Part shown: positions 21,945 through 56,525 of the stretch, piece by piece
Position numbering within the stretch: the first letter of the stretch is position 1
How the letters are laid out: each line of letters begins with the position of its first letter
From: Fistulifera solaris
Lineage: Eukaryota > Bacillariophyta > Bacillariophyceae > Naviculales > Stauroneidaceae
Direction of reading: 5' to 3'
DNA length: 64,000 nucleotides
Assembly (NCBI GenBank): GCA_030295235.1
Contig: AP026145.1
Location: forward strand, 374,501 to 438,500
Made by a program: the position numbers and the translations under genes
The notes under the pieces: model-generated
Told to the model about the DNA's origin: nothing
Databases searched by the model: none
The model's input: the letters and a program-made list of their open reading frames with translations, nothing else

Positions 21945-22750
21945 TCATTCAATTTCGTCGTTTTCGTCGTACCTTCCCACGGGTTGACGGCAATTGGGAC
22001 ACGTGGGATGACTGCGCTGCTGTTGCAACCAGTGGCGGATGCACTTGGCATGAAAATTGGCCCCACATTGGGTGCGACAGTGCAGGTTATCGGCCGCCGC
22101 CTCCAAGACATCAAAGCAAATCGGACAGTCTTCTTGATCCTGTCGACAGGCGACTTGGGGAGCAGGACCCCGCTGTAGCTTGGCTGTATTCGTTTCGTAC
22201 GACCGACTTGGCCAGGACCGCTCCGCTGACTTGCTGGAATCGTTAAGCCATACAGGCATACATCTCTTCCAATTCTGTCTTGATCCAAGCTTGTTGATAC
22301 ACCAGCGGTGACGACGACGGAATCGCCATGACTTTGAGTAACACAAAAGAATGTGTTTGCATAGATTGCCTTTGGCATGATCCGGGCAACTGCAATGCGG
22401 AGTGCGTTGAATCGTGACGTCGTAGACATTACCCGTCGATCCCAAGACGACAAACGCATTACGACAAGTCATCTTGAACGTCCGATTTCGTCACCAAGTA
22501 CATGGACTGTGAAAGGGCGATCAATGCGCTGTTGAACGTTTTTGGGAGGATTGCTTCGATAGCGCTTGCTGCGCTTCTCCGGTTTTCCGGTGTCCTTGAA
22601 TGCGGCGGCCGAGGGTGTAGCCCCGTTCGACTGTTGCATGCTCACGTATCGCTCTCGGAGCGTGTCCGTAGAACCCGTCGCGGGTAACTTGAACGCTTTC
22701 AAAGCCGCTTGGAGTTCGGCACGAGACAACGTGAAAGGATCTGCTGTCAT
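21945..22750 (-). CDS. SAP-SWIM-RING protein, putative E3 ubiquitin ligase, several frame breaks
   Basis: Three nucleic-acid or ubiquitin modules in order. The first is a SAP-like helix pair near the start (TLSRAELQAALKAFKLPATG). The second is a SWIM zinc finger (HCSCPDHAKGNLCKHIL, the CxCxnCxH pattern). The third is a C-terminal RING-type finger (CPICFDVLEAAADNLHC, CGANFHAKCIRHWL, CPNCRQP). RING proteins transfer ubiquitin from E2 enzymes, and SWIM-RING combinations occur in ZSWIM2/MEX-type ligases. The frame changes at TT 22474-22475 and AAAA 22345-22348 (one base missing each) and near 22243-22247 (one extra). After the second change the sequence reads FVLLKVMAIPSSSPLVYQ, which follows SWIM in relatives. 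A further shift after CRQP would extend the protein to 21839, ending YHDPDYYE; I give the shorter directly read end. Confidence 0.72.
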
Positions 22751-23486
<736 letters not shown>

Positions 23487-23522
23487 CTATGTAACGATTA
23501 AATTTACTTGAAGACTGGGTAC

Positions 23523-23640
23523 CGATCCCCGGGGATCGAGCCCCCGCTTGCGGGAAGGCGGGAAGGGCGAGAACGAAAAAAGCCCCCCGCAGGGGCTAGA
23601 CGCCGAAGGCGGCTAGTAAAAATAACGCCGGCGACCGGCG
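23523..23640. repeat. Cluster of five perfect hairpins in a GC-rich island
   Basis: Directly after the GT tract: CGATCCCC/GGGGATCG (23523-23538), CCCGC-TT-GCGGG (23543-23554), AGCCCC-CCGCA-GGGGCT (23581-23597), CTAG-A-CGCC-GAA-GGCG-G-CTAG (23596-23616) and CGCCGG-CGA-CCGGCG (23626-23640). The stretch 23520-23670 is much richer in GC than its surroundings. It lies 3' of the minus-strand gene at 23831-25018. Role unknown; terminator, structured RNA or mobile-element end are all possible. Confidence 0.7.
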
Positions 23641-23830
23641 ACGAAAGCCACGACGAGAGACGCGGCGCGGCGAAGTCGATTGACCAAGACCACTGCGACA
23701 GAGAACTATTTCCTGCGTGATGTGGCGCTATAAAAACAATAACTTCGGCTATTGCTGCGAAAAGCGCAAGCTACAACTCCACAATAACTCTTCTTTCTCT
23801 TGATACACTCTCTTTATTATTATATCACTA

Positions 23831-25018
23831 TTACAATTCACAAAATGGCGGGAGAATGCTCGCATCAACCTTTCGGAAGGCTCTTTTCGAAAAGAGTCGC
23901 GCATCCACTTCACAAATCCCCAAATTCTCCGCGGACTTTTTCCAATACTCTTTACCTGTACCTACATTGACGGATTTCGTTCGTTTCAAATGAATGAGTC
24001 GCTCACGTACCTCATCGGGGATGGACTGGCAACGACCCCCGTCAAAATGATTCTTCGACATGTTCTGGGCGGCTTGGTAAATCCCTTCCAAGGTCGCTGG
24101 ATAATACACCGAACCCCGGGGACGAGCGTCGTACGGGACTTTGGCGCAATGCACGCACATCACTCCCACCTGACGGGCCGTAATTGGTTTGTTGCGTCCT
24201 TGCACTTTGCCTCCTTTGCGGGCGCGTTCCGTTTCGACGTACACAATTTGTTGTCGTAGATAGGATTGGTACTCCGACAAGACGTACTTTTCGTCTTCGG
24301 AAAAGACGGGTACAATGGAATCGCCTTCACGGCAGGTTTTGGGTAGATTGCGATCGGATTGTTTGGGTGACGGCTTTTTGTCGGGAAGAGAAGCAGGCGG
24401 GATGGCGGGCGACGTGACGGTCTTGGAAAACGGCGGCGGCGACCGAAGGCCATCTCCAGTATCTCCTGTCAGGACTTGAGAAGCAGTGGCAAGTGATAGA
24501 AAGGAAGTAGGAGCACTTGGTGCTTCTGGGATACCATTGAACCGTAACGATAACTCGCGCAGGGAGTTGTTTTGACCCGCCAGGATGTATCGAAGCAACT
24601 CGTTGGGGAGTGCAGTCGACGACAGCGGATTCTCTAATGGCAAAGTCTGACGAGTGTTCAACAAATGTTGCGCAGCAATATTCGCTTGTGAGTTGGAGTT
24701 CAACAGATTCGGCAAGGTGAGATCCGAGGGTGCCAAAAGATTCGAGGTGGGGGCCGTGTTTAAGAGCGTATTTTGCCACGGCACATGCAATTGATCTACG
24801 GCGGTGTTATTTGCTAAGAGATGCCGCAGCAATAAAGTTTGAACCAAATCGCGTTCGTTGCTAGCATGGATTTGATTTTGATTTATCGAATGATGTAAAG
24901 CATGCAAAGTAGCATCGTCCATGAGATCCAGTAATCCCAATACATTCATTGAAGGTAAAGAAGACGACTGTTGACTTCCCGTCCTATTGTGATAGTAAGG
25001 ATTATTCGAATCCGTCAT
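23831..25018 (-). CDS. Unknown protein with C-terminal Cys/His module (diatom-type family)
   Basis: 395 residues in one intact frame from MTDSNNPYYH. The first 200 residues are Asn/Gln/Leu-rich and low in complexity. The C-terminal 170 residues are well structured. VLSEYQSYLRQQIVYVE is followed by GVMCVHCAKVP, then PRGSVYYPATLEGIYQAAQN, NHFDGGRCQSIP and a basic helix. The CxxC, H and C spacing suggests zinc binding. I recall this module from many unannotated diatom proteins, often with a similar low-complexity N-terminus, but I cannot name a Pfam family. A nuclear or nucleic-acid role is only a guess. Hairpin clusters flank the gene on both sides (23523-23640 and 25072-25156). Confidence 0.75.
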   Translation of the reverse strand: MTDSNNPYYHNRTGSQQSSSLPSMNVLGLLDLMDDATLHALHHSINQNQIHASNERDLVQTLLLRHLLANNTAVDQLHVPWQNTLLNTAPTSNLLAPSDLTLPNLLNSNSQANIAAQHLLNTRQTLPLENPLSSTALPNELLRYILAGQNNSLRELSLRFNGIPEAPSAPTSFLSLATASQVLTGDTGDGLRSPPPFSKTVTSPAIPPASLPDKKPSPKQSDRNLPKTCREGDSIVPVFSEDEKYVLSEYQSYLRQQIVYVETERARKGGKVQGRNKPITARQVGVMCVHCAKVPYDARPRGSVYYPATLEGIYQAAQNMSKNHFDGGRCQSIPDEVRERLIHLKRTKSVNVGTGKEYWKKSAENLGICEVDARLFSKRAFRKVDASILPPFCEL

Positions 25019-39200: not shown

Positions 39201-41603
39201 TTACAGAAAGTAATCATTTGACGCTTTTGCCCCAGGTGGGGTCGTTGTTGTGTTGGGCCCTCGAGTGCTGGACGCACTTTGCAAGGAGTTTGCGGTGGCA
39301 TTGTCGGGCGTAATGTCGTATTCTCGGGGCGGCTCGGGCACAGAGAGATGCGGAGTCGGTGCCTTTTCAGGTTCTTCAGAAGCATAGGCGTTCGACAGCT
39401 GCATGTCGCTGTTCTCACTTGTATAAGCGTCGCTACTAGGCCTCTTGCTCGCTGTGGAAAACGGGGTTAACTCCTTGGGATTTGTTTGGTAGCATGAAAC
39501 TAATGCTACCAAATGAGCTCGGATCTTCTTCTTCAATCATAACATCTTCCTTCAGACTTTCCAAGTAGTGGCTGCTTTTTCGACTTTTGAATTCAATGCT
39601 CGATTGTGACGAATTCATACTTTCTCTGCTATCTAATTTTGCCCGACTTTGCATCCGTTCGCTTTTCTCTTGGAACTGGAAGTCACTGGAGAAACCAGAT
39701 GCGTTCGAGGAACCCGTACCTCTTGTGGATCGACGCTGACGTGAATCTTTTGCCTGGGCTCGGATCGATTCCTGGAGAAGTCGCCGCTGAGATCCCTCAC
39801 TGCGCCCGATAAATCGTTGCGCAAGAATAATTTTAGGCACGAAAATCAGCAGAAGGACAGCGCAAGCAATCGTAAAAATCATAAACACAATGACCAAATA
39901 GAATGCTTGCGGTGACTCTTTAACAACAAAGAGTATCGGAATACCGGAAAGCATGGCCTGGAGAAGCGAAGCCATGGACGTTGCAATATATTTCGATTCT
40001 GAAAATTCAGACTCAATGTAACGCGCTTCGTATGCTTGCCAGTTGGCCGCAGCTAAAAGACTAAGATTCACTCCAGCCAGTGGGAGAAGGAAACGGAGAA
40101 CGTTCTCCGACTGGCACGCGCCATAGGTAGCAATCACACGATCCCAACCATCCAGACCCGGCAAATCTTGTCGGGTATAAGTCAATGGATCAAGAATACT
40201 CCAAAGTGTCAGAATCAATGTATTTGCCATAAGCAAACCAAAGAAAGGCAAAGCGACATCCTTGGGTTTGATCTCAACACGGGCAAATCGAGATTTGCTG
40301 TGAAAGATCTTGTTCACGCGCATCGTCTTAGCAAAGAGCGCAGAGAAGCTGATGGTGAAACCGGTGGAAGCCAACCAAGGAACAGACATGCAGATGAGTT
40401 TGGCTTCTGGGTCCGAGGATTCAAATGGAGTACCATTGTCGTCGAACGAAAGCGGAATGAGAGCAGATGCGAGAACCAACACACCCGCCGCGACCATTAT
40501 CAAGAAGAAAGGTTGCGCAGCTTTAACGATAATCAAGTTTCGGTAAACAAGAACCCAGCATGAGAAGCCAATCGCAGCAGCGGCGATGAGGGCAAAAGAC
40601 AGAACCCAACAATGTTGAGTGAGCCAATAAGGTTGTTATCAACCTCCAGGGGCGGCAGCTCTAGCGGAATCAGTAGATGCGACAGCACGTTCGTCCCAAT
40701 AACATCTCCTTTAATGGGTTTGTCTTGGATCAGCTTCAGCAGCGTATCCACCGACAACAGTCCCATTTCATATGGCAACTGCCCTACGAGACCCTGGACG
40801 TACCCTCTATCGAGAAATTCGAGCTGATTCGGCATTGCATCTCCTGAGACCAGCGTAATGTTTTTATCTCGGTGTTCGTTGACGAAATCCTTCCAGCAAC
40901 AACTTCTCATCGGCGCGCCCATGACCGGAACAATTGCTGTCGGTGGGGGATCATAGCTGGCAAACTCCTGCATTTTCTCAATCGCTATTGACACATTAGC
41001 AGCAATATCAGCAGGAGAGTCTATCACTTCTCTCCACAAAACTCCTTTTTCACGTTTCATTTCCTCCTGGAAGCCGCGAACGCGTTCCTGAAGATTCGGA
41101 CTATCAAACGTCGTCAGTAACGCATAAGTTCCTCCGTTTGGTTGCAATTGTTTGAGAACCTTGGCAATCTGGGCTCCGAAGAAAGTATTGTCTGTGCCGA
41201 TGTATGCCTGTCGATTAGAAAGTCGTGCGTCACTGTCGAAGGTAACGACGGGGATTCCTTTCTCGACCGCACGATTGATGACATCGACAATAACTTCAGC
41301 GTTGCGGACGCTGATCGTTATACCGTCCACGAGGTCATTGTCGATGAGATCTGCGATGATTTCGGACTGCAAAATTCCCAGTTCATCTTCTTCTTCTGTT
41401 TCCGGTCCTACATAACTACAGTTGACCTCCAAGTTCATACGACCCCCGAGAATGAGGGCGCCATCGATACAACCTTCTCGGGCACCGTCGAAGTAAGGGT
41501 TTGTAAGCGCTTTAGTCACCATCGCAATTCTAATCAACCCATTTGCGTCCTGCGCTCGAGCCAGCAGGAATGGAAGGACAGTTATCAATGTCTTAAAGTA
41601 CAT
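39201..41603 (-). CDS. Class C GPCR-like receptor with sugar-type periplasmic-binding ectodomain (copy 1), two frame breaks
   Basis: Predicted plasma-membrane receptor of about 800 residues. A signal peptide (MYFKTLITVLPFLLARA) precedes a type-1 periplasmic-binding domain of the RbsB/LuxP kind (IRIAMVTKALTNPYFDGARE, DGITISVRNAEVIVDVINRA, IPVVTFDSD, AYIGTDNTFFGAQIAK, NITLVSGDA, GLVGQLPYEMG). A juxtamembrane segment LELPPLEVDNNLIGSL leads into seven hydrophobic segments of the class C (7TM_3) type, including VPWLASTGFTISFSALFAKT and the loop KTMRVNKIF, typical of GABA-B-like receptors. The intracellular tail is Ser-rich and ends NDYFL. Frame changes at AAAA 40594-40597 (one missing) and near 39475-39500 (one extra) cancel, giving 801 codons. 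Class C GPCRs are known in diatoms; the ligand is unknown. Tandem neighbour: the copy at 42617-44968. Confidence 0.85.
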
Positions 41604-42616
41604 GGCAGACTTCTCTATTTCTAAATTTGTATTGTTCCTCCTGGACAGCCCTTGACACAGATAAAAACCTCCTTGAAGTCTTCTCTTTTCTCCCTCACGT
41701 TTCCCTTTTTTTGCTTGATTTAGTCAGTGTTTCGTATGAAAGAGAAGTAAGAAGAATGGCACAAGGTTTATCTAAGCGGAACGTGCGTTATACCAGGTAA
41801 ATCTTCTTTTCGTCGTCGCCGTTGTTGCGCTTGTTGCATGTGGCTCTGCTTCATCATTCATCATTCTCCGCCACAGTCAGCATGCGGAATGACCTTCTAC
41901 TCTTTCAATGATAGAACTCAAGCGAATAAGAAAATCTTTATCCTTGATCTCTATGTCCAGCTATTTCGTCATCAACTGTCAAATGCCAGACTCGAAGGAC
42001 CTTTTTCTGTCTCCAAAAACAGTAACGTCAATTCTATTAGGGCGTTCGTATAATTGATAGTATCTTATATCTTATTACATTACAATCTACAATCTCATAC
42101 AGGCCATATGTCCTACAATAGTGATTTCGACAAGCGGCTTCCCCTTCACGTTTCAAGAAAGCATCATCGATCATTGCGAAAAATATTATTACCGGTACGT
42201 CGTCGCTTTACCGATGGCGAGGATGAAGTCAAAATCCAATATTTTGTCAAGTTTTTCGTAAATCATGACTTTTGAAACGCATTTCAGTAGAGGTAGACAC
42301 AATTTCAGATTTTTGTATTAATGTTAACGAAATAATGTAATTTTATTCTATTTCTAACGATGAAAACAGTAACATACGATCCTCAGAATGGCTAAGGTTG
42401 TGAGAATGACATAGGACCGCGAAAAAATGAAACGATGCAAAATTATTGAGCCAAAATTCTTGCCATCAACCTTGAGCAATGAGCAGCACGTGATGATCTC
42501 TCTTTATAAATCTCTTAACGACTAATGATCTCGACTAGCTACGACAGTAACTATGTTATAAAATAGTCAAAGATTAACATGACTCGTCTACGAGGTTGCG
42601 ACAATGGGGTGCCCGT
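41604..42616. other. Spacer between the two receptor genes
   Basis: 1.0 kb containing the copy 1 promoter and the copy 2 3' end. AT-rich near 42280-42360. No separate gene seen. Confidence 0.45.
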
Positions 42617-44968
42617 CTACAAGAAGTATTCGCTCGGCTTTTTCTTCTTCGGCGCTGTCGTACGAGCCGATTCCGGTGAAGCCAGCTTTTGCCCGTGATC
42701 CGCCTTGAGATGAACGTTGCTGATTTGGTGTTCTTTCGGTGGCTCTGGCACCACAAGCTTCGACGCTTTTCCAGGTTGTTCGGTATGTGCGAGCTCCACG
42801 TCGCTGCATTCACTCGGCCACGCCTCGCTGTCGGATGTCTTGTTGCCAATGAACTGGGGCATATCTCGCGGCGCCTCCGGTGACGAGCTATCTTCCTCGA
42901 TCATTACGTCTTCCTTCAAGCTTTCCAAGAAATGGCTATTTCGTTTGTTCTTGCTACCACGAGTGGGGTGCGAAGACTTTAGGTTTTTCTCGGCCGTTCG
43001 CCTTTGCACCGTTGTCATCCTGTCCCTGAGACTCACAGGACGACGCCGCGGAAAAGCCGCCCGATGGATTCGAAAGACCTGAGATGTTGGAGGATCGTTG
43101 GGGCCGCGCGTCTTTGGCACGAGCTCGGATGGACTCTTGGATGAGACGACGTTGCGAACCATCGCTGCGCCCAATAAATGGTTGCGCGAGAACGACCTTG
43201 GGGACAAAGATCAGCAAGAGGACAGCTGATGAAATGATGAAGATCATAAAGACAATGACCAAGTAGAATGCTTGAGGCGACTCGCGAACAACAAACAGTA
43301 TCGGAATACCGGACAGCATGGCTTGGAGAAGCGAAGCCATTGACATGGCGATGTACTTGGACTCCGAGAACTCCGACTCAATGTAACGCGCTTCGTACGC
43401 TTGCCAGTTCGCGGCGGCGAGAAGACTGAGATTTACAGCCGCCAACGGAAGAAGGTAATGAAGAACGTTGTCTGATTGACATGTGCCGTACGTGGCAATT
43501 ACTCGATCCCAACCATCTAGGCCAGGCAAGTCCTGTCGCGTATACGTCAATGGATCGAGTACACTCCAGAGAGTCAAAATCAAAGTGTTTGCCGTGAAGA
43601 GGCCAAAGAAAGGCAAAGCAATATCTTTTGGTTGAATTTCAACTCGGGCAAAGCGAGACTTGCTATGAAAGATCTTGTTCACGCGCATCGTCTTGGCAAA
43701 GAGCGCAGAGAAGCTGATGGTGAAACCGGTGGAAGCCAGCCACGGAACTGACATACACATAAGCTTGGCTTCTGGATCCGAAGGATCAAAGGGAATGCCG
43801 TTATCGTCAAAGGAGAGCGGAATGAGAGAAGACGCGAGAACAAGCACACCTGCGGCGACCATTATCAAGAAGGACGGCTGTGCGGCCTTCACAATTATCA
43901 AATTTCGATAAACAAGGACCCAACATGAAAAGCCGATGGCGGCAGCGGCGATAAGGGCAAATAGGCAGAGGCCGACAATACTGAGTGAACCGATAAGGTT
44001 GTTATCGACTTCCAAGGGCGGTAGTTCGAGAGGAATCAGTAAATGTGACAACACGTTTGTGCCGATAACATCTCCTTCAATATCCTCTTTTGGATCAGCT
44101 TCAAAAGTGTTTCCACAGACAGCATACCCATTTCATAGGGCAATTGTCCTACGAGACCCTGGACGTATCCTCTATCGAGGAACTCCAGCTGATTCGCCAT
44201 TGCATCTCCCGATACCAGCGTAATGTTCTTGTCTCGATGTTCATTAACAAAATCCTTCCAGCAGCAACTTCTCATCGGTGCGCCCATAACCGGAACAATC
44301 GCCGTCGGAGGCGGGTCATAGTTGGCAAACTCTTGCATCTTTTCAATAGCAATATCTATATTGCTTTCGATATCGGCAGGAGAGCCCGGTACTTCTCTCC
44401 ACAACTCTCCTTTCTCCCGTTTCATTTCCTCTTGGAAACCGCGAACGCGCTCTTGAAGATTCGGACTTTCTAGCGACGTAATCAATGCGTATGTGCCGCC
44501 GTTTGGCTGCAATTGCTTGACGACTTTAGCAAGCTGCGCCCCAAAGAAGGTATTATCTGTGCCGATGTAAGCACTTCGCACAGAGTCCGGTGAGTCACTG
44601 TCAAACGTAACGACAGGAATGCCTTTTGCCACAGCACGGTTTATAACCTCAATCAAGGTTTCCGCGTTACGGGCACTCACAGAGATACCATCAACGAGAT
44701 CGTTATCGATAAGGTCGGCGATGATTTCAGCTTGCTGGATACCAAGAATGTCTTCATCATCCTGTAGCGGGCCCACGTAGCTACAATTTACCTGCATGTT
44801 CATGCTATCGCCGAAGATGAGGGCGCCATCAATGCAGCCGTCTCCGGCCACATCAAAGTAAGGGTTGGCAATGGACTTCGGCACCAGCGCGATTCTAATC
44901 AAACCGTTCGCGTCCTGCGCTCGGGCTAGCAGGAAAGGAAAGAATGTTACCAATGTTAGAAAGTTCAT
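42617..44968 (-). CDS. Class C GPCR-like receptor with sugar-type periplasmic-binding ectodomain (copy 2), two frame breaks
   Basis: Close paralogue of the gene at 39201-41603, same strand, about 1 kb upstream of it. It starts at MNFLTLVTFFPFLLARA (44968), which aligns with copy 1; the upstream in-frame codon at 44989 is not needed. The binding-protein domain is nearly co-linear (IRIALVPKSIANPYFDVAGD, DGISVSARNAETLIEVINRA, AYIGTDNTFFGAQLAK, GAPMRSCCWKDFVNEHRDKN). The membrane domain is more strongly conserved than the tails (for example VPWLASTGFTISFSALFAKT is identical). The tail ends SEYFL, against NDYFL in copy 1. Frame changes occur near 44100 (one base missing, giving LLKADPKEDIEGDVIGTN) and near 42960-43010 (one extra); the total is 784 codons. 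Recent tandem duplication is likely. Confidence 0.85.
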
Positions 44969-48281: not shown

Positions 48282-49975
48282 TTAGACAAGTCCTATCATG
48301 ACGAGGGCGAGACCGAACGAAATCACGGCGCATCGATAAGCCCCTGCAGATGATACAGGCGGTGTTTCCGTGCCACCAGTCACCGGAGTGGATGATGGTG
48401 GGATTGTAGTGCCTCCTTGTGGTGGGGTCGTCAGCGTGCCCGTGGGCGTGCTCACCGGCACACTAGTCGGTGGATCTGATACATCAACGGTGCCCTCGCT
48501 AGGCGACTCAGTGCCATCCGGAATAGAGCTTGGTATGTCAGACAAATCCGATGCGGATGGACTAGGTGCGGGAGTATCGTTCTCAGTGACTCCTTCTCCC
48601 TCGGTGGGCTCTTCAGGTCCAGTAGGCTCTCCTTCGCCATCGCCAGGGCCATCACCATCGGTTCCATCGCCAGGGCCATCACCATCGGTGCCATCGCCAG
48701 GGCCATCTCCATCAGTACCATCCCCAGGCCCATCAGCATCGGTGCCATCGCCAGGGCCGTCTCCATCAGTGTCGCCGCCAGGACCATCACCATCGGTGCC
48801 ATCGCCAGGGCCGTCTCCATCAGTGTCGCCGCCAGGACCATCACCGTCTGTGCCATCGCCAGGACCGTCTCCATCAGTGCCATCACCAGGGCCGTCTCCA
48901 TCAGTGTCGCCGCCAGGACCTTCACCGTCTGTGCCATCGCCAGGACCGTCGCCATCAGTGCCATCACCAGGGCCGTCTCCATCAGTGCCATCGCCAGGAG
49001 CTTCACCGTCTGTGCCATCGCCAGGGCCGTCTCCATCAGTGTCGCCGCCAGGACCTTCACCGTCTGTGCCATCGCCAGGACCGTCTCCATCAGTGCCATC
49101 GCCGGGACCCTCCCCGTCGGTCTCGCCACCAGGCCCCCGCCTTCGTCGGGCTGATTATCCGGTTCCGGTTCTTCGGGTGTTCCAACAGGAGCTTGCACGG
49201 GTTGCTCATTGCCGGGCTCTTTCACTGGAGCGGCTGCCGGGGCTTTTACTGGAGCGGCTGCCGGGGCTTTCACAGGGGCTGCTACGGGTGCTTTTACTGG
49301 AGCAGCAACAGGAGCAGCAACTGGTGCTTTCACTGGAGCAGCTACGGGTGCTTTCACTGGAGCAGCTACGGGTGCTTTCACTGGAGCAGCTACGGGTGCT
49401 TTCACTGGAGCAGCTACGGGTGCTTTCACTGGAGCAGCTACGGGTGCTTTTACAGGAGCAGCAACCGGTTTTGCTACAGGGGTAGCAACAGGAGCAGCAA
49501 CTGGTGCACCATCTGCTGGACAAAGTTCCACGCATACTTGCGAGATATCGAAAATATTCACTCTCGGACAAGGGCATCCGTTTGGCTGATTAGAGCAGCT
49601 GTCGGTACATCCACCGACATAACAGTCAGCAACGGAGCTACATGTTGAACTATCCGCTGAGTAGGGTCCGTCGCACTGTGTAGTCACTCGGAATGTGAAA
49701 TGCTGGCCACTGCCGCACAAATCCGGGCAATAAATTTGATCGATAGGGTTGGTAGTCGATGCATCATGATCTCCCTCGTATTCACATCCCTGAGGCGTAA
49801 ACAACTGAGGGACAGTGTGACGAAGCTGACGGGCGCTTCGTTTGAAAGCAATACTTGCTTCCCACTGGTCGAAAAGCGTCTCGTCGACACCCTTGTAACC
49901 CAAAAACGAAGAGGAGAATTGGGACGCTTCGACAGCGATAAGCCAGGTGGGAAAGATGGTTGCAAACGTTTTCAT
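48282..49975 (-). CDS. Secreted, probably anchored repeat-rich surface protein, one frame break
   Basis: About 564 residues. MKTFATIFPTWLIAVEAS is a signal peptide; the upstream in-frame Met (50020) is less likely. A Cys-rich domain follows (CEYEGDH, CPDLCGSGQHF, CSSVADCYVGGCTDSCSNQP, CPCPRVNIF). Next come about a dozen Ala-Pro-Val-Lys repeats (APVKAPVA, 49210-49490), then about twenty GDGTDGDGP-type acidic repeats (48640-49115), then a Ser/Thr/Pro stalk and a hydrophobic C-terminus (AVISFGLALVMIGLV) typical of a GPI-anchor signal. The frame changes at GG 49132-49133; one added base gives 565 codons and joins GGG to PGGETDGEGPGDG. Cell-wall, frustule or adhesive role is inference. Repeat number is likely to vary between strains. 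Confidence 0.75.
48640..49115. repeat. Coding tandem repeat, 18-bp unit (Gly-Asp-Gly-Thr-Asp-Gly type)
   Basis: On the plus strand the unit is CCATCGCCAGGRCCRTCW plus variants, arranged in about 26 copies with CCG/CCA substitutions. Higher-order blocks occur in which CCATCAGTGTCGCCGCCAGG recurs (48764, 48815, 48899, 49036). Confidence 0.85.
49205..49490. repeat. Coding tandem repeat, 30-bp unit (Ala-Pro-Val-Lys type)
   Basis: The unit GGAGCAGCTACGGGTGCTTT plus CACT is repeated nearly perfectly five times between 49335 and 49455, with more diverged copies on both sides. It encodes PVKAPVAA in the minus-strand gene. Confidence 0.85.
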
Positions 49976-50764
49976 TGCTTCGGTTTTCGTCCTTGTTGAG
50001 GAAAAATATGAGAGCCACAACTGCCGTGTCCGATGAACGTTTTAAGGTGCGAATAAATAAACGAATGAATACGCTCTCATCTATTTCAAACGATACTCCG
50101 TTCCGTCAACGGTATCAAGCAAAAAATTTAGATAAATAACACGGTCTGTATTATTGTGCAACGGTCCTCGCAAATGGCTACTTGTCGTACTTTTTCAGAG
50201 AGACAGAAAGATCCAGTTTCTGTTTCAACTCCGACCTGAAACTCCAACGCACGCGAGCTCGTGAACGAGCTACTATCACGCAACGTGTGGGGGGACTTCT
50301 CATCGACCCCGACTGAAATCCAGTCACGAGACATTAGCGCATCTCCTGACTCCATTATTTGTACTAATGTCTCCTGACTGCGACTACCTGGTACCCTTGA
50401 CGAACTGCTATAAGGGCATATTGCTATAGTAATGCACACCTGGATGGGTTGAGAATTGACCTGGAGGGTTCTGCTGAGTTACTAAAGCAAACAGCAAAGG
50501 TTTCACACGACTATAAGTCTCAAAACTAAGTTCCCTTCTACTGTATGAGATATCTATTGAGGCTTGCCTCAAATTAAAACTATCGCCAAAATGTATTCTC
50601 CTGTGTTTCTAAACGCTTCAAAATGGAACCATTTCGATGCTTGTTTGGGCGTAATCAGTCGTTTTCGTTTTTTTCCTGAAGCGATAGCAGCCAATCGAAT
50701 ATCCGCAATCCCACGAAGTTTATGTACAGTGCGATTGATATGAGGTCGCTGTCAGTATCTAGTG
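49976..50764. other. Intergenic region with palindromic GACTGAAATCCAGTC motif
   Basis: 790 bp. GACTG-AAATC-CAGTC at 50311-50325 runs straight into CAGTCACGAG (50321-50330). It lies 336 bp upstream of the repeat-protein start. No gene seen. Confidence 0.5.
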
Positions 50765-52107
50765 TTAACCGAAGAAGATGAAGAGCAGGATCGTCTTAAA
50801 ACCAAATCGTGCGTAACGTCGAACCGAGGATGATGCCGGAAATTCATTCAATAGATCCGAAACAACTGAGGGAGATGCTGGCTTTGTTTCATTTTTCGTT
50901 TTGGGTGATCCAGTGGGGACGAGAGACGGTGCTAATGAAGCCAAGGCGGATGGTACCAGGGACGGAAACTCCGAAGGCACGGCGGAAGGTGCCAAAGAGG
51001 GGGCCTGCGAAGGCACGACAGAGGGCTGGTCCGAAGGCGTTGAACTAGGAGCTTGGGATGGAAAACGTGAAGGTACAATGGATGGTGAAGATGTTGGAGA
51101 AGTGGTTACTGGGGTTGATGATGGCGATGAAGTTGCTTGCCACAAAGCCGTACTTTCCGAAGGCATATCTGTGTGGTCACAACGGTACGCATTAGTGCTG
51201 AAACCGGAAGCCTGTTTGGTATTCTGATCAATTCGAACGTACCTATTGGTATTTGCGAGCTCTCAGAAATGTTTTGTGAGCAATTGGCAGGCGGGTTGTC
51301 GGTTCGTGTGCACAAAAATTCATCAATCCAGTCAATGTAGCTGCTGATGCGTGTGTAAACACCTGGCAAGTTCGGCCTAGCACACCCTATTCCAAAAGAC
51401 ACAATCCCATATTGAAGATTCGTATCCTGTGCGTCCACCAGGGGACCTCCCGAGTCACCGCCACAAGAATCTTGGCCACCTTCGGGGTAGCCCGCACAGA
51501 GATGAATATCAGAGACAAACAAGCCCGGCAGCAACATCTCACAAGTGCTTTGCTCAACAATTTCCAAAGTCGCCTGTTTGAGCTCTGTCGAAATATTTCC
51601 TCCTTCAGATGTCAAACCGAACCCCATGATCGTAGCTGGCGTTCCGGCTGGTGGAATGGTGCCGTTCCGATGGAGTTGCACGACTTGAGCATTCACAACG
51701 GGGGTGGCTAACTTTATTAACATGATATCATTCAGTTCCGGACCTGGCGTGTATTCAGGATGCGGGAAATTGTATTCGATGGGATAAAATTCGGATGTGC
51801 TATCGTAACCCATCCAATCCAGCGTACGGAGAATGACTCCAGTGCTATAAGCTTTCACACAATGTGCTGCACTGAGGACAACTTCGGGATGTATCAAAGA
51901 ACCACCACATAAATCACCATCGACGCCGTGCACATAGTATGGGAACACATCCGCACTCGAAACAAAGTCACCTCCGACGATACGCGGCGTGATGGCGAAT
52001 GTATCGTTCCCAATTTTCAACGTCGAAGACAGACCTCGCGGTTCACCTATGGCGCCCAGCGAAGCTATCACCCAGGGACAATACGACAGCCAGATCAGAC
52101 GCCTCAT
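50765..52107 (-). CDS. Secreted trypsin-like serine protease with Pro/Ser stalk and C-terminal anchor, one frame break
   Basis: S1-family endopeptidase of about 447 residues. A signal peptide (MRRLIWLSYCPWVIASLGAI) and short propeptide lead to the activation site R|IVGG (residues 43-46). The catalytic triad is His82 (LSAAHC), Asp127 (LNDIMLIKL) and Ser219 (GDSGGPLV). Asp213, six residues before Ser219, predicts cleavage after Arg/Lys as in trypsin. After the domain (YTRISSYIDWIDEFLC) comes a linker, then the frame change at AA 51236-51237; one added base gives 448 codons. The tail has Pro-Ser repeats (PSxxPS, about 20) and a hydrophobic end (FGFKTILLFIFFG), suggesting membrane or GPI anchoring. 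It was probably an extracellular processing or digestive enzyme; the target is unknown. Confidence 0.87.
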
Positions 52108-53286
52108 CGTCACAGCCTGGACGGAAGAAAAATATAAATGGTCCGGTATTTCGCACGATAAAAGGATGTGTCTTTTCTCCTACCGACTTCCGAGTGAAAA
52201 GGGAACGCAACGCGCAGCTCGTGCAAGGAGCAAGCAATAATTTCGCCTCAACTCCAACAGAAAAAAACAGTAATTTAGATTATAGTGTAAAACAACAAGA
52301 CTACTTTACAACCATATATATATTATTTGGTCTAGATATGAGAGTGTGTTGTCCTGCTATGTTCTTAAGAACTTATTGCGCGTGTCGGTGTCGGGTCTTC
52401 TCTTTTGTTGGTTTTTACTTGTAGTAGAAGTTATGGAGGGAGTTTTTCCGCCTTCCGCTTTTAGCTCTCTTTCGTCATCACATCTAAGTCAGTCACGTCT
52501 TTCCTAGTCTACTACTTTGAACAAGCGTATGATGCGAAATGTTGAGAGCGACTTGCCGTTTACGAAGCACTCATTATGGTCTCTTTGTGACTTCTTTCAA
52601 GCAAGCGAATTATCGGCATAAGGTTCAATGGAAACCCTCTCTGGAATCATATCACTAACTTATTATGCAGCATAAGCTCCTAATGATGGTTCTTGAACAA
52701 AATCATTTGTTAACAGATGCGGGAAAGAATACGTTCATTGCTAGACTACCAGTATAGTGTCGTTGTTTTCGAATTTTTAATCTAAGGTTTTCAGCTGGAT
52801 TGAAATGGGAGACATACGGTTTCACACATATCAGGAAACGATACGCTTAGGATCAACACTGTCACTTTGATTGTGTTATCATTGGCAGCTTAACTTTATG
52901 AGAGACTTAGTCGAATGACATCGAAAATTGCTCAGCCGCCGACGCAGAAACAAAACTGACGTGTAAGTCAAATCATCGCCTCGGTACTCAAACTTACACT
53001 TTATTCTACAGTCAATCCTGTCAGACAATCGTGGAGACGGTCCAAGACAGACGGTTCATTCACGGGCAGCCATCAAGCGTCGAGATGAGCGAGACGAAGG
53101 AAAAGATGGAAGAAAAAGGTTGATGACGGTGGATGAAGTGAAACATTCGAATGATGCATTCACTCCATAGTTAACCCCGAGACAATTGAGTGAAACAAGT
53201 GCCAGGCGAGAAACAAGCCCGCAATCATCAAAGAGGAATTGCTTTTGTACACCAGATATTGTTTCACAGTTGCTACATTGAAGAAA
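52108..53286. other. Intergenic region, divergent promoters of protease and Mfd-like gene
   Basis: 1.2 kb. A TATATATATTAT stretch lies at 52314-52325. No gene, RNA or long repeat recognised. Confidence 0.4.
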
Positions 53287-56200
53287 ATGGAATTCATAAT
53301 ACGACAACCACTCTCGCTTCTATTACTCTTGCTTGTATCTTACGCTGTCATTATTGTTACGCCGTGCTGTCTAGCCTTCACCTCGCCGATCGGTCCGAGA
53401 CAAAGCGCATTCTCAAGGCACACGCACCCGAAAATTGCATCGTTCAGAGTTGATATTGATGTTGACGCTGTATTTGGAAGTGCCAATCAATCTACAGGAG
53501 GCGTAAGCTGGGGCGCCGACGATGATGACGGAGATTTTATTGATCCACAGAAAATCCATCAAGATCGGGTTGCAGAGCTTTTACAAGAGGATAACAAAGA
53601 CTTTAAAGAAATCAGGAGACAAAAGAAGTGGGGGAAGTTCGCCAACATTACGAATACAGATGAGCTACGTAGTGCACTACAGAAAGAAATGGAGCGAGTA
53701 GATGCCGAGCACGAACTAAAAGCCAGTATGGCGGCACTTTCTGGAGTAGAATATTCAGTGTTGGAGGCGAGGGAAACTGGATCTAGGGTATTCGACGAGG
53801 GTGGCAATGTTCACATAACTGCTGGATCAAAGTCATGGTTCGCTGAAGTTGATGATGAGCTAGAAAACGAATGGCAGACTTTAACAGGCGATCAGGGGCT
53901 AGATGTCCAGGTAGACGATACTTCCGGAAAAATTGTAACCAGAGACGCGCTTGCTGGAGTTCGAGTGGGAAGTGCTGGAGGTTGGACGTTGGAGGTATTT
54001 CCAGGGGATTTTGTCGTGCATCGAAAGTACGGAATCGGTCGCTTTGAGAGAACATGTCTTCGGCCAAAGACGAAACTAACACCCGAAGAAAAGAAGGCGC
54101 AAGAAGCCCGTCGAGGAGAGATTTTGACGGCTGAATTGAAAAAGATATCAGGTGGCGTTACTCCAAAAGATATCCAGGACATTAGGTCGAAGTTCGGTAC
54201 GGACGAAGACACTGATCCCATTTCAAATCCCCAATCCACCGTCTTAGAAATATCGTACGCCGACTCAATAGTCCATGTACCTGTGGAACGAGCATACCGT
54301 ATTAGTCGTTATCGAGCTGGAGATGCAGTTGTAAAACCCAAACTGTCCAGGGTTCGCGGAGAAGCTTGGGCCAAGGCAAAACGAAGAGTTGAAGACAACA
54401 CGCTAGAGATTGCTCAAGATGTACTAGCTTTGTATGCTACTAGAGAAATGCTTCAAAGACCCCCTTTCGATCCCTTGCTAGAGGACACAGTAAAACAATT
54501 TGAAAAAACATTCCCGTTTGAACCTACAACGGACCAGAAGAAATGCTTTGAGGATATTGAGAATGATATGGTTTGGAAAAGCCGCCCAATGGATCGGTTA
54601 GTGTGTGGTGATGTAGGTTTCGGAAAGACGGAAGTTGCATTTAGGGCCCTGTTTCGTACTGTGGTAAATGGAAAGCAGGCGGCTTTTCTCGCCCCGACAG
54701 GTGTTCTTGCTGCTCAACACTACAAGAATATCGTGCAACGTATGGCTGGTTTTGACGTCAACATATCTCTTCTTCGCGGAGGCATGACCCGAACCACCAG
54801 AGTCGGTCGAGAAATACGAGAAGAGATTGAATCGGGAAAAATACAATTGATTGTCGGCACACACGCTTTGCTTTCGAATGATCTAAAATTCAAAAATTTG
54901 GGGCTCTTAGTTGTTGATGAGGAGCAGCGCTTCGGCGTGAAACAAAAGAGCGCCTCAAACTAATATCTAGTGGTATTGACGTTTTGACGCTTACCGCTAC
55001 TCCAATCCCAAGAACTTTGCAGATGAGTCTTAGCGGAATCCGTGACACATCAACAATTCGATCGCCTCCTCCGATGCGAAAGTCTACAATCACTTATGTT
55101 CAAGATTTTTCGGAGGAGATGGTAGCAAATGCAATTCAAACGGAACTTGACAGGGGCGGTCAATGTTACTATGTTGTCCCCAGAATTTCTATGTTAGCGG
55201 ATGCTGAGGCACTGATGGTCAAGCTTTTCCCTGATATTCGCATCATTCAGGCTCACGGTCGCATGCAGAGAGGTGGTGCTGAGGAAAATGTAGCAAAATT
55301 CGCTGAAGGCAATTATGATGTTCTGCTCGCAACGACTGTCATTGAAAACGGAGTAGACATTCCGTCGGTCAACACGATCATTGTACAAAACTCGCAAGCC
55401 TTTGGTATGAGTACTCTTTACCAATTAAGAGGTCGCGTTGGGCGATCTAATCAGCAAGGCTATGCTTATTTCTTGCATCGCGAAGACTCGGTGACCGAGC
55501 AAGCTGCAATGCGACTGCAAGCGATTGGCGAGCTTTCGGAACTCGGAGCTGGTTTCGATGTTGCTAACAGAGATCTCGAAATTCGTGGAGCTGGTAGTCT
55601 CTTAGGCACAGAACAAAGTGGAATGGCTGCAAAAGTGGGTTTCGATCTGTATATGCGTATGCTCAAGAAAAGTATCCGTAAGTTGAGAGGTCTCGATTTA
55701 CCTGTTGTTCCCCGGACGAATATTCTGTTGGATACCGGCTGCACCCCCAGCACCTTCAAGCTACCACCAGATTTCATCCCCGACGAAAGTAAACGACGTA
55801 TCGAAGAAAGTAAAGCCCGATTGGCGGAAAGCACTGCAGCTCTCGTGAATATTACCAGTTTTTGGAAAAGTGAATATGGCCAGCTGCCAGCGAGCCTGCA
55901 GTCGCAATTGAAAACCATGCATCTCCATGCATGCACTCGTCGCTTGGGCATCGATCTGGTCGGATTTGTAAAATCAGACGAAGAGGGTATGTTCGATTGT
56001 GTTCTCAGATCACCTGGTCTCAGGCCACGACATTGGGGCATTATCCTATCGGAATTTCCTCGACCAGCTGCCCCGAAGGGTTTGGACGTAGTCTTCCCCT
56101 CTCGTTTTACGCTTTCGGGTGAAGATGAGATGTTCCTAGGAGGGAAAAAGATTGATCTGAAGCTGCTAACGGCCGAAGAAAGCGTGAACGAAGAAGAGGA

Positions 56201-56525
56201 AGAGGAGGTATGGGACGCCATGGATCAAGAAGAGCAAGAAGCATTGAGAGATATTGCTTCTGCAGTGAACGTGGAGAGCATGGATGAGATCGACATAGAT
56301 CAGTATCCGCGGTTTGTGATACGGAATTTTGAATCCGAAAGCAAAGCCGTCGACGCGCTACTCAAGTTGCTCCTTCCTATCTCTAAGGTAGTGCACGAGA
56401 AGCAAGAATCGCAGGCAGAGCAAGCAAAGGCAGCTGTAGAGCTGCGCAAGAAGCAAGATCTGTTGCGAAATCGGAAGGCTACGATGGAAAAATATGACAT
56501 GCAAAGAATGAACTTTGAATATTAA
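53287..56525 (+). CDS. Plastid Mfd-like translocase (transcription-repair coupling factor without UvrB module), one frame break
   Basis: About 1,079 residues. MEFIIRQPLSLLLLLLVSYA is a signal peptide ending at CLA|FTSP, a diatom plastid-import motif, so the protein probably acts in the plastid. A CarD/RID-like RNA-polymerase-binding domain (residues ~238-330: GDFVVHRKYGIGRFERT, LEISYADSIVHVPVE) precedes the RecG/Mfd ATPase: Walker A CGDVGFGKTEVA (~439), APTGVLAAQ, GTHALL, DEEQRFGVKQK, TATPIPRTLQMSL, the helicase C lobe (LLATTVIENGVDIPSVNTII, LRGRVGRS) and the TRG-type motif (ELGAGFDVANRDLEIRGAG). A TRCF-type C-terminal region follows. Bacterial Mfd has an N-terminal UvrB-like module that is absent here. 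The frame changes at 54948 (AAAAGAGC); one added G gives KQKERLKLIS and 1,080 codons. Confidence 0.88.

Follow-up and report, generated by a model that had tools for sequence, protein, structure and literature searches.

Genes for putative simple-sugar receptors in the diatom Fistulifera solaris: a tandem pair joining a bacterial-type sugar-binding ectodomain to a GABA-B-like seven-helix domain

Two adjacent genes in the diatom Fistulifera solaris raise the question of what a class C G-protein-coupled receptor (GPCR) senses when its extracellular part resembles a bacterial sugar-binding protein. The genes, here called A and B, lie in a window of 64,000 nucleotides (contig AP026145.1, our C21, positions 374501-438500) of a 51.7 Mb assembly in 61 contigs. 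B (44968-42617) and A (41603-39201) are on the minus strand, arranged head to tail, and each has a signal-like start followed by a Peripla_BP_4 ectodomain, a 7tm_3 domain of GABA-B-like type and a tail that has diverged between the two. YFL stands directly before the stop codon in both tails, which otherwise align poorly with each other. A preliminary description, made from the letters of the window alone, had placed this tandem pair at the right coordinates and had proposed an RbsB-like two-lobed ectodomain joined to a GABA-B-like seven-helix domain, with tails that both end in YFL. The Peripla_BP_4 and 7tm_3 matches bear this out, and the DSD and GTDNTFFGA motifs that it named are present in both copies, the latter as YIGTDNTFFGA. 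On balance, we favour the view that the receptors sense a simple sugar outside the cell, through a CUT2-type ectodomain that would close on an aldose, a GABA-B-like domain and G-protein output.

The Pfam E-values for the domains of A and B are far better than the curated cut-offs, and the ectodomain is of the two-lobed Venus-flytrap type that belongs to class C GPCRs. With a threshold of E<=1e-3, the frames of the ectodomains matched Peripla_BP_4 alone and not the ANF_receptor family (PF01094), which is usual in animal class C receptors and characterises the ectodomain of GABA-B receptors in the strict sense; this agrees with the earlier proposal that the ectodomain is not of the animal amino-acid-binding type. 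The B ectodomain had 35 PDB sequence matches at E<=0.01; no class C receptor is named among them, and most are sugar-binding proteins. A non-sugar ligand of the animal class C kind, whether an amino acid, GABA or something else, is therefore improbable, even though the GABA-B-like membrane domain would suit such a ligand. A structural model of the B ectodomain had a predicted local distance difference test score (pLDDT) of 94.4 and a predicted template modelling score (pTM) of 0.86. VIA-align gave values of 28.4 for AraP, 27.8 for 3g1w and 27.5 for both CbpA and a Thermotoga glucose/xylose-binding protein, followed by XylFII (26.7), LsrB (25.8) and RbsB (2dri, 23.4); adjacent values count as ties, and a common fold says nothing about the ligand. 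The model, like that of the A homeolog described below, was built from an alignment that contains bacterial binding proteins. It supports a type-1 sugar-binding fold, as had been predicted, and a contrary fold was not seen.

The membrane domain carries the 7tm_3 match of a class C GPCR in both genes. Its top PDB sequence matches were GABA-B receptors (E 3e-18), and cysteines at the top of the third transmembrane helix (TM3) and in the second extracellular loop, together with FVPK in TM7, line up with their GABA-B counterparts in sequence alignments. These cysteines and the FVPK motif are hallmarks of class C receptors. The translated linker contains no cysteine, so that no cysteine-rich domain precedes TM1, as in GABA-B receptors. 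Neither ectodomain is a free exported protein serving an ATP-binding cassette (ABC) importer; both are fused to 7tm_3, and the two domains share one open frame in A', the homeolog of A on contig C22, and at locus C, a further receptor locus of the genome. A model of A' (598 aa) had a mean pLDDT of 84.9 and seven helical spans, with TM2 fragmented; pLDDT fell below 50 in the linker, and the placement of the domains is uncertain. Foldseek matched the whole model to human GABA-B with an E-value of 5e-17, a TM-score of 0.40 and a root-mean-square deviation of 23.6. Contig C17 has a G-alpha match that reaches from position 3 to position 333 of the 333-position model if three stops are read through, and contig C18 has pieces of another.

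To characterise the pocket, A and B were compared with E. coli K-12 RbsB. Both keep N13, D89, R141, D215 and Q235, and have aromatic residues at positions 15 and 16. The ectodomains thus combine a Peripla_BP_4 match with the pocket core of the CUT2 type (D89, R141, D215 and Q235, RbsB numbering), and the core sugar residues sought in the preliminary description are in place. N64 of RbsB is S in both proteins, and at 12 of the 13 positions examined A and B have the same residue, the exception being the F164 column (S in B, A in A). An alanine scan of RbsB reports that D89A, R141A and D215A lost signalling, and that F16, F164, F214 and Q235 were without significant effect at 1 mM ribose (PMC5557919).

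The preliminary description had suggested either a sugar or a signal like autoinducer-2 (AI-2) as the ligand. The pocket core agrees with the first; the second fared badly. The AI-2 residues named for LsrB are K35, D116, D166, Q167, P220 and A222 (PMC3386761). In a comparison with E. coli K-12 LsrB, A and B keep two of them (K35 and D116), the others being changed (D166N, Q167L, P220V, A222G). Proteins substituted at D166 and A222 are described in the same source as likely rhamnose transporters. The kept K is no mark of AI-2 binding, because it is also found in 30 of 33 aligned bacterial rows. The NCBIfam LsrB model scored 44.6 bits with B and 30.9 with A against a cut-off of 384, and the scores with all NCBIfam models considered (RhaS, LsrB, rhizopine, allose, xylose and others) were far under their cut-offs; the ectodomains therefore match no named bacterial specificity. 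Four changed pocket residues out of six make an LsrB-type AI-2 receptor unlikely, LsrB being the only AI-2 pocket compared. That the ectodomain is an AI-2 receptor of either the LsrB or the LuxP kind, through which the diatom would hear bacterial quorum signals, is very unlikely.

To find the nearest relatives of the ectodomain, a profile built from A, B and locus C was searched against 299 genomes of one bacterial phylum and 121 of one order. Of the 299 sampled genomes, 21 had a match at E<=1e-25, and four of these stand out (245-259 bits, the next scoring 148); of the 121, 9 had one at the stricter limit of E<=1e-45. By tblastn, the four top bacterial proteins show 38-41% identity with B and 42-44% with C; the C and B ectodomains are themselves 39% identical, on a par with the bacterial proteins and B. 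The closest ectodomain relatives found beyond the genome itself are thus bacterial binding proteins, with 38-45% identity. Named plasmid records, searched by tblastn, gave at best 35% identity to C (Bosea) and 33% to B. Profile searches with alignments from the diatom genome gave no confirmed locus among genome contigs or viral contigs, and six loci were obtained when the search alignment had two rows, one of them 5hqj. As the profile covered one phylum and one order, a closer relative may exist than the group of proteins that we call the L057 type (L057-L060 and L084-L086).

One L057-type protein adjoins homologues of xylA and xylB. Its operon (L078) carries genes for a LacI-type regulator, for homologues of E. 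coli XylB (a kinase, 51% identity), XylA (an isomerase, 59%), RbsA (an ATPase, 36%) and RbsC (a permease, 37%), for the binding protein itself, and for aldo/keto-reductase-like and amidohydrolase-like proteins; the regulator and the last two proteins were named by eye. Judged from translations, a second locus (L079) has the same gene order. L057-L060 resemble the diatom ectodomain across nearly its whole length (38-45% identity) and share its pocket core and a cysteine pair (mature residues 25 and 42 of B). A, B, C and 28 of the 33 bacterial rows have this pair, which 5hqj, 6gq0, RbsB, LsrB and XylF lack; loci D and E retain only the second cysteine. Locus F and two bacterial sequences, L051 and L052, were not part of the alignment. 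The L057-type proteins differ from A and B in that they sit unfused beside ABC-importer genes and do not have the adjacent cysteines at precursor residues 235-236, which are found in A and B and in none of the 33 bacterial rows.

A tree of the ectodomain with 50 rows grouped A, B, D and E together with support of 97/95, and these with C at 79/93. The A-E rows fell within a set containing 28 bacterial rows (100/100), and a sister relationship between the diatom set and the L057 type had support of only 27/4. Locus F stood apart from A-E on a branch of 3.9. When six rows were dropped (locus F twice, L051, L052, L061 and 6gq0), the A-E rows lay on one side at 95/88. Constraining A-E together with the L057 type cost 1.6 log units (approximately unbiased test, p-AU 0.18), and constraining C alone with the L057 type cost 7.0 log units (p-AU 0.10); neither was rejected. 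These sequence comparisons make a bacterial source of the ectodomain likely but do not prove it. A single origin of all six loci is not established, since the branch of locus F is very long and separate from the A-E rows.

A mechanism can be proposed along these lines. The Venus-flytrap ectodomain, of the bacterial monosaccharide-binding subfamily, would most likely close on an aldose, with a pentose (xylose or arabinose) or a hexose as the candidate. Closure would be relayed through the short linker, which has no cysteine-rich domain, to the seven-helix domain; the receptor would probably act in a dimer and signal to a heterotrimeric G protein. It may serve in sensing polysaccharide breakdown or exudates, perhaps at surface attachment. 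The analysis shows which domains the genes encode, how they are predicted to fold, that core residues of the pocket are kept, that selection is purifying and that the genome contains G-alpha-like sequence; the sugar ligand, the dimer, the G-protein coupling and the role are inferred. Several points weigh against this proposal. Several RbsB contacts are changed in A and B (S9K, R90S, N190M and F214G), and at 190 and 214 the M and G of A and B also differ from the G and A of the nearest bacterial protein, so that the pocket is altered. The L057 binding protein is just 25-26% identical to XylF, RbsB and LsrB, and the content of its operon is consequently the sole hint of its sugar. The pTM of the A' model was 0.53, and its hydropathy scan exceeded the threshold at six of seven spans, TM3 lying below. 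No RGS match was found in the genome, where the control was likewise silent. Lastly, neither A nor B is a single open frame in the present assembly, each having two 1-nt breaks, and the step near 44088, in a run of four A, is common to B and its homeolog B'.

The frame breaks were therefore examined by comparison with the other copies, which located the steps given in Table 1. Contig C22 carries the same tandem pair, A' and B'. A' is open through the joint between ectodomain and membrane domain (728 codons from stop to stop) and has frame steps of its own, in its tail and close to its start; in B' the stretch from the linker to the end of the tail is open (506 codons). Introns were ruled out as the reason why A and B change frame, as the copies align there and differ by single-base steps only. 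In the four-way alignment several steps fall in short homopolymer runs, and most are placed differently in each copy. The simplest reading of the step common to B and B', though not a certain one, is that sequencing erred systematically at this run in both. Ratios of non-synonymous to synonymous substitution (dN/dS, Nei-Gojobori) were 0.051 for A-A' and 0.015 for B-B' in the ectodomain, and 0.028 and 0.034 respectively in the membrane domain. As these ratios lie between 0.015 and 0.051, the A and B proteins appear strongly constrained, which points to assembly errors rather than marks of pseudogenes. Frame steps do occur in all four copies, as would be expected if A and B were pseudogenes. However, the frames resume and continue as conserved protein to the common YFL end, loci D, E and F of the same assembly likewise shift frame within conserved domains, and locus C is open in both copies; with the low dN/dS, this makes decayed genes a most improbable explanation.

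Homologous contigs at the receptor loci are 86-92% identical, which fits the description of F. solaris as an allodiploid with paired homoeologous chromosomes, 42 pairs in number (PMC5935921), as against the 61 contigs of the present assembly. The tandem pair predates the split of the two chromosome sets, because both contigs carry it and each gene groups with its homeolog. The A and B ectodomains are 82% identical, and the membrane domains of B and A' 92%, in keeping with the near-identity noted in the preliminary description. Signs of gene conversion were sought in window identities and synonymous divergence (dS). In 200-column windows at the start of the membrane domain, A'-B' identity was 96.0 and 94.0%, and A-A' identity 86.4 and 84.0%; in ectodomain windows the order was reversed (A'-B' 66-84%, A-A' 86-96%). 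A'-B' dS was 0.60 in the membrane domain and 1.92 in the ectodomain, the latter a rough value near saturation. Judged from these sequence comparisons, conversion between the C22 copies is likely to explain part of the likeness of the A and B membrane domains, and probably keeps the start of this domain alike on C22 while ectodomains and tails diverge. Alike membrane domains with diverged ectodomains and tails would therefore probably give a common signal output with different partners or trafficking.

GABBR2 is a signalling and trafficking partner of GABBR1, and A, B or both might similarly have lost ligand binding and act as a partner, with the binding subunit encoded at another of the six loci. 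The two diverged tails, the near-identical membrane domains, the altered pocket positions and the existence of six loci with Peripla_BP_4 and 7tm_3 would all suit such a role. We regard it as rather unlikely, given that the pocket core is kept, that A and B agree at nearly all RbsB positions examined and that both ectodomains are under strong purifying selection.

The tandem pair belongs to a larger family. At least 22 7tm_3 places, grouped as ten loci, and at least 12 Peripla_BP_4 places were found in the genome, both counts being lower bounds; the latter make up six loci, each adjoining a 7tm_3 match. ANF_receptor matched five places (contigs C3 and C4, 88-109 kb), none close to any 7tm_3 place. 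Locus F (L039 and L040; C7 near 199 kb and C8 near 137 kb) apparently has two tandem binding modules before the seven-helix domain, the second matching Peripla_BP_4 and the first read from the translation.

Table 1. Features of the tandem receptor genes, in window coordinates
Feature	Position	Strand	Evidence and remarks
Gene B signal peptide (MNFLTLVTFFPFLLARAQDA)	44909..44968	-	Inferred from hydrophobic N-terminus before ectodomain
Gene B ectodomain, Peripla_BP_4, 273 aa	44090..44908	-	Pfam E 2.3e-39
Gene B linker and GABA-B-like seven-helix domain	43161..44089	-	7tm_3 E 2.6e-38; 1-nt frame step near 44088
Gene B cytoplasmic tail, end SEYFL	42617..43160	-	Second frame step near 42988; homeolog B' open there
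Gene A signal peptide (MYFKTLITVLPFLLARAQDA)	41544..41603	-	Inferred from hydrophobic N-terminus
Gene A ectodomain, Peripla_BP_4, 273 aa	40725..41543	-	Pfam E 7.1e-37
Gene A linker and GABA-B-like seven-helix domain	39796..40724	-	7tm_3 E 6.6e-37; frame step near 40597
Gene A cytoplasmic tail, end NDYFL	39201..39795	-	Second frame step near 39470

Elsewhere in the window, a minus-strand open frame at 48455-50041 contains a long PVKAPVAA-type repeat and has no Pfam match at E<=1e-5; it lies in the most GC-rich 2-kb bin and perhaps encodes a wall or adhesion protein. A trypsin-family protein (E 2.5e-49) is encoded at 51109-52179 on the minus strand, followed on the plus strand by two adjoining open frames (53194-56522), the first of which matches a DEAD helicase and, weakly, the CarD/TRCF interaction domain, and so resembles bacterial Mfd. 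Strong local skews (GC 0.24, AT -0.22) occur at 22001-24000. In the wider assembly, plastid-type Photo_RC matches were found on contigs C60 (232,645 bases, four matches) and C61 (116,223 bases, half of C60, one match); those on C60 form two opposite-strand pairs of equal or near-equal score, which may reflect a doubling in assembly.

The architecture itself was already known. Seven class C receptors of diatoms whose N-termini are of the periplasmic-binding type were described by Port et al. (2013), and three of them, all from Phaeodactylum tricornutum, are reported to resemble ABC sugar transporter components (PMC3727952); the preliminary description thus overstated its novelty. The F. solaris receptors share with those of P. 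tricornutum the 7tm_3 domain and an ectodomain of the sugar-ABC type, and differ in that at least six loci, two of them in tandem, occur in one genome. P. tricornutum GPCR3 and GPCR4 (Phatr3_J44131 and J44133) have close gene numbers, a mere hint of a matching pair. Solved GABA-B receptors are the best PDB match of the membrane domain and the Foldseek match of the whole model, and their linker also has no cysteine-rich domain; what sets A and B apart is their ectodomain, which is a binding protein of the sugar type, is about 270 aa long and does not match ANF_receptor. Class C GPCRs of anaerobic gut fungi have putative bacterial-type sugar-binding domains too, described as type II (PMC5168858), whereas structural matches place the A and B ectodomain in type I. 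Dictyostelium class C receptors likewise join 7tm_3 to an ectodomain of the Periplas_BP clan, there BMP (PF02608; PMC3251606) and here Peripla_BP_4. As regards function, Fu et al. (2020) report higher expression on solid medium for five known and three predicted GPCR genes, and oval, more adhesive P. tricornutum cells on expression of GPCR1A or GPCR4 (PMC7452957). A literature search found no report of a ligand for a diatom class C receptor or of a link to a pentose operon.

As a tentative and rather doubtful history, a diatom lineage may have captured the binding protein of a bacterial pentose operon and fused it to a GABA-B-type domain, creating a eukaryotic G-protein receptor for a simple sugar such as xylose from algal or bacterial polysaccharide. 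The family would later have grown to five or more related loci. A and B would be the two subunits of one receptor, their signalling halves held alike by gene conversion as ectodomains and tails specialise. To the work of Port et al. the present analysis adds the bacterial subfamily of the ectodomain, six loci with such an ectodomain in a single genome, purifying selection, and traces of gene conversion that concern the membrane domain. With the ectodomain assigned to a bacterial subfamily of sugar-binding proteins, and with a bacterial relative that can be assayed cheaply, the ligand question becomes directly testable, and the F. solaris receptors provide a further case of class C receptors whose binding domain belongs to a bacterial family other than the animal one.

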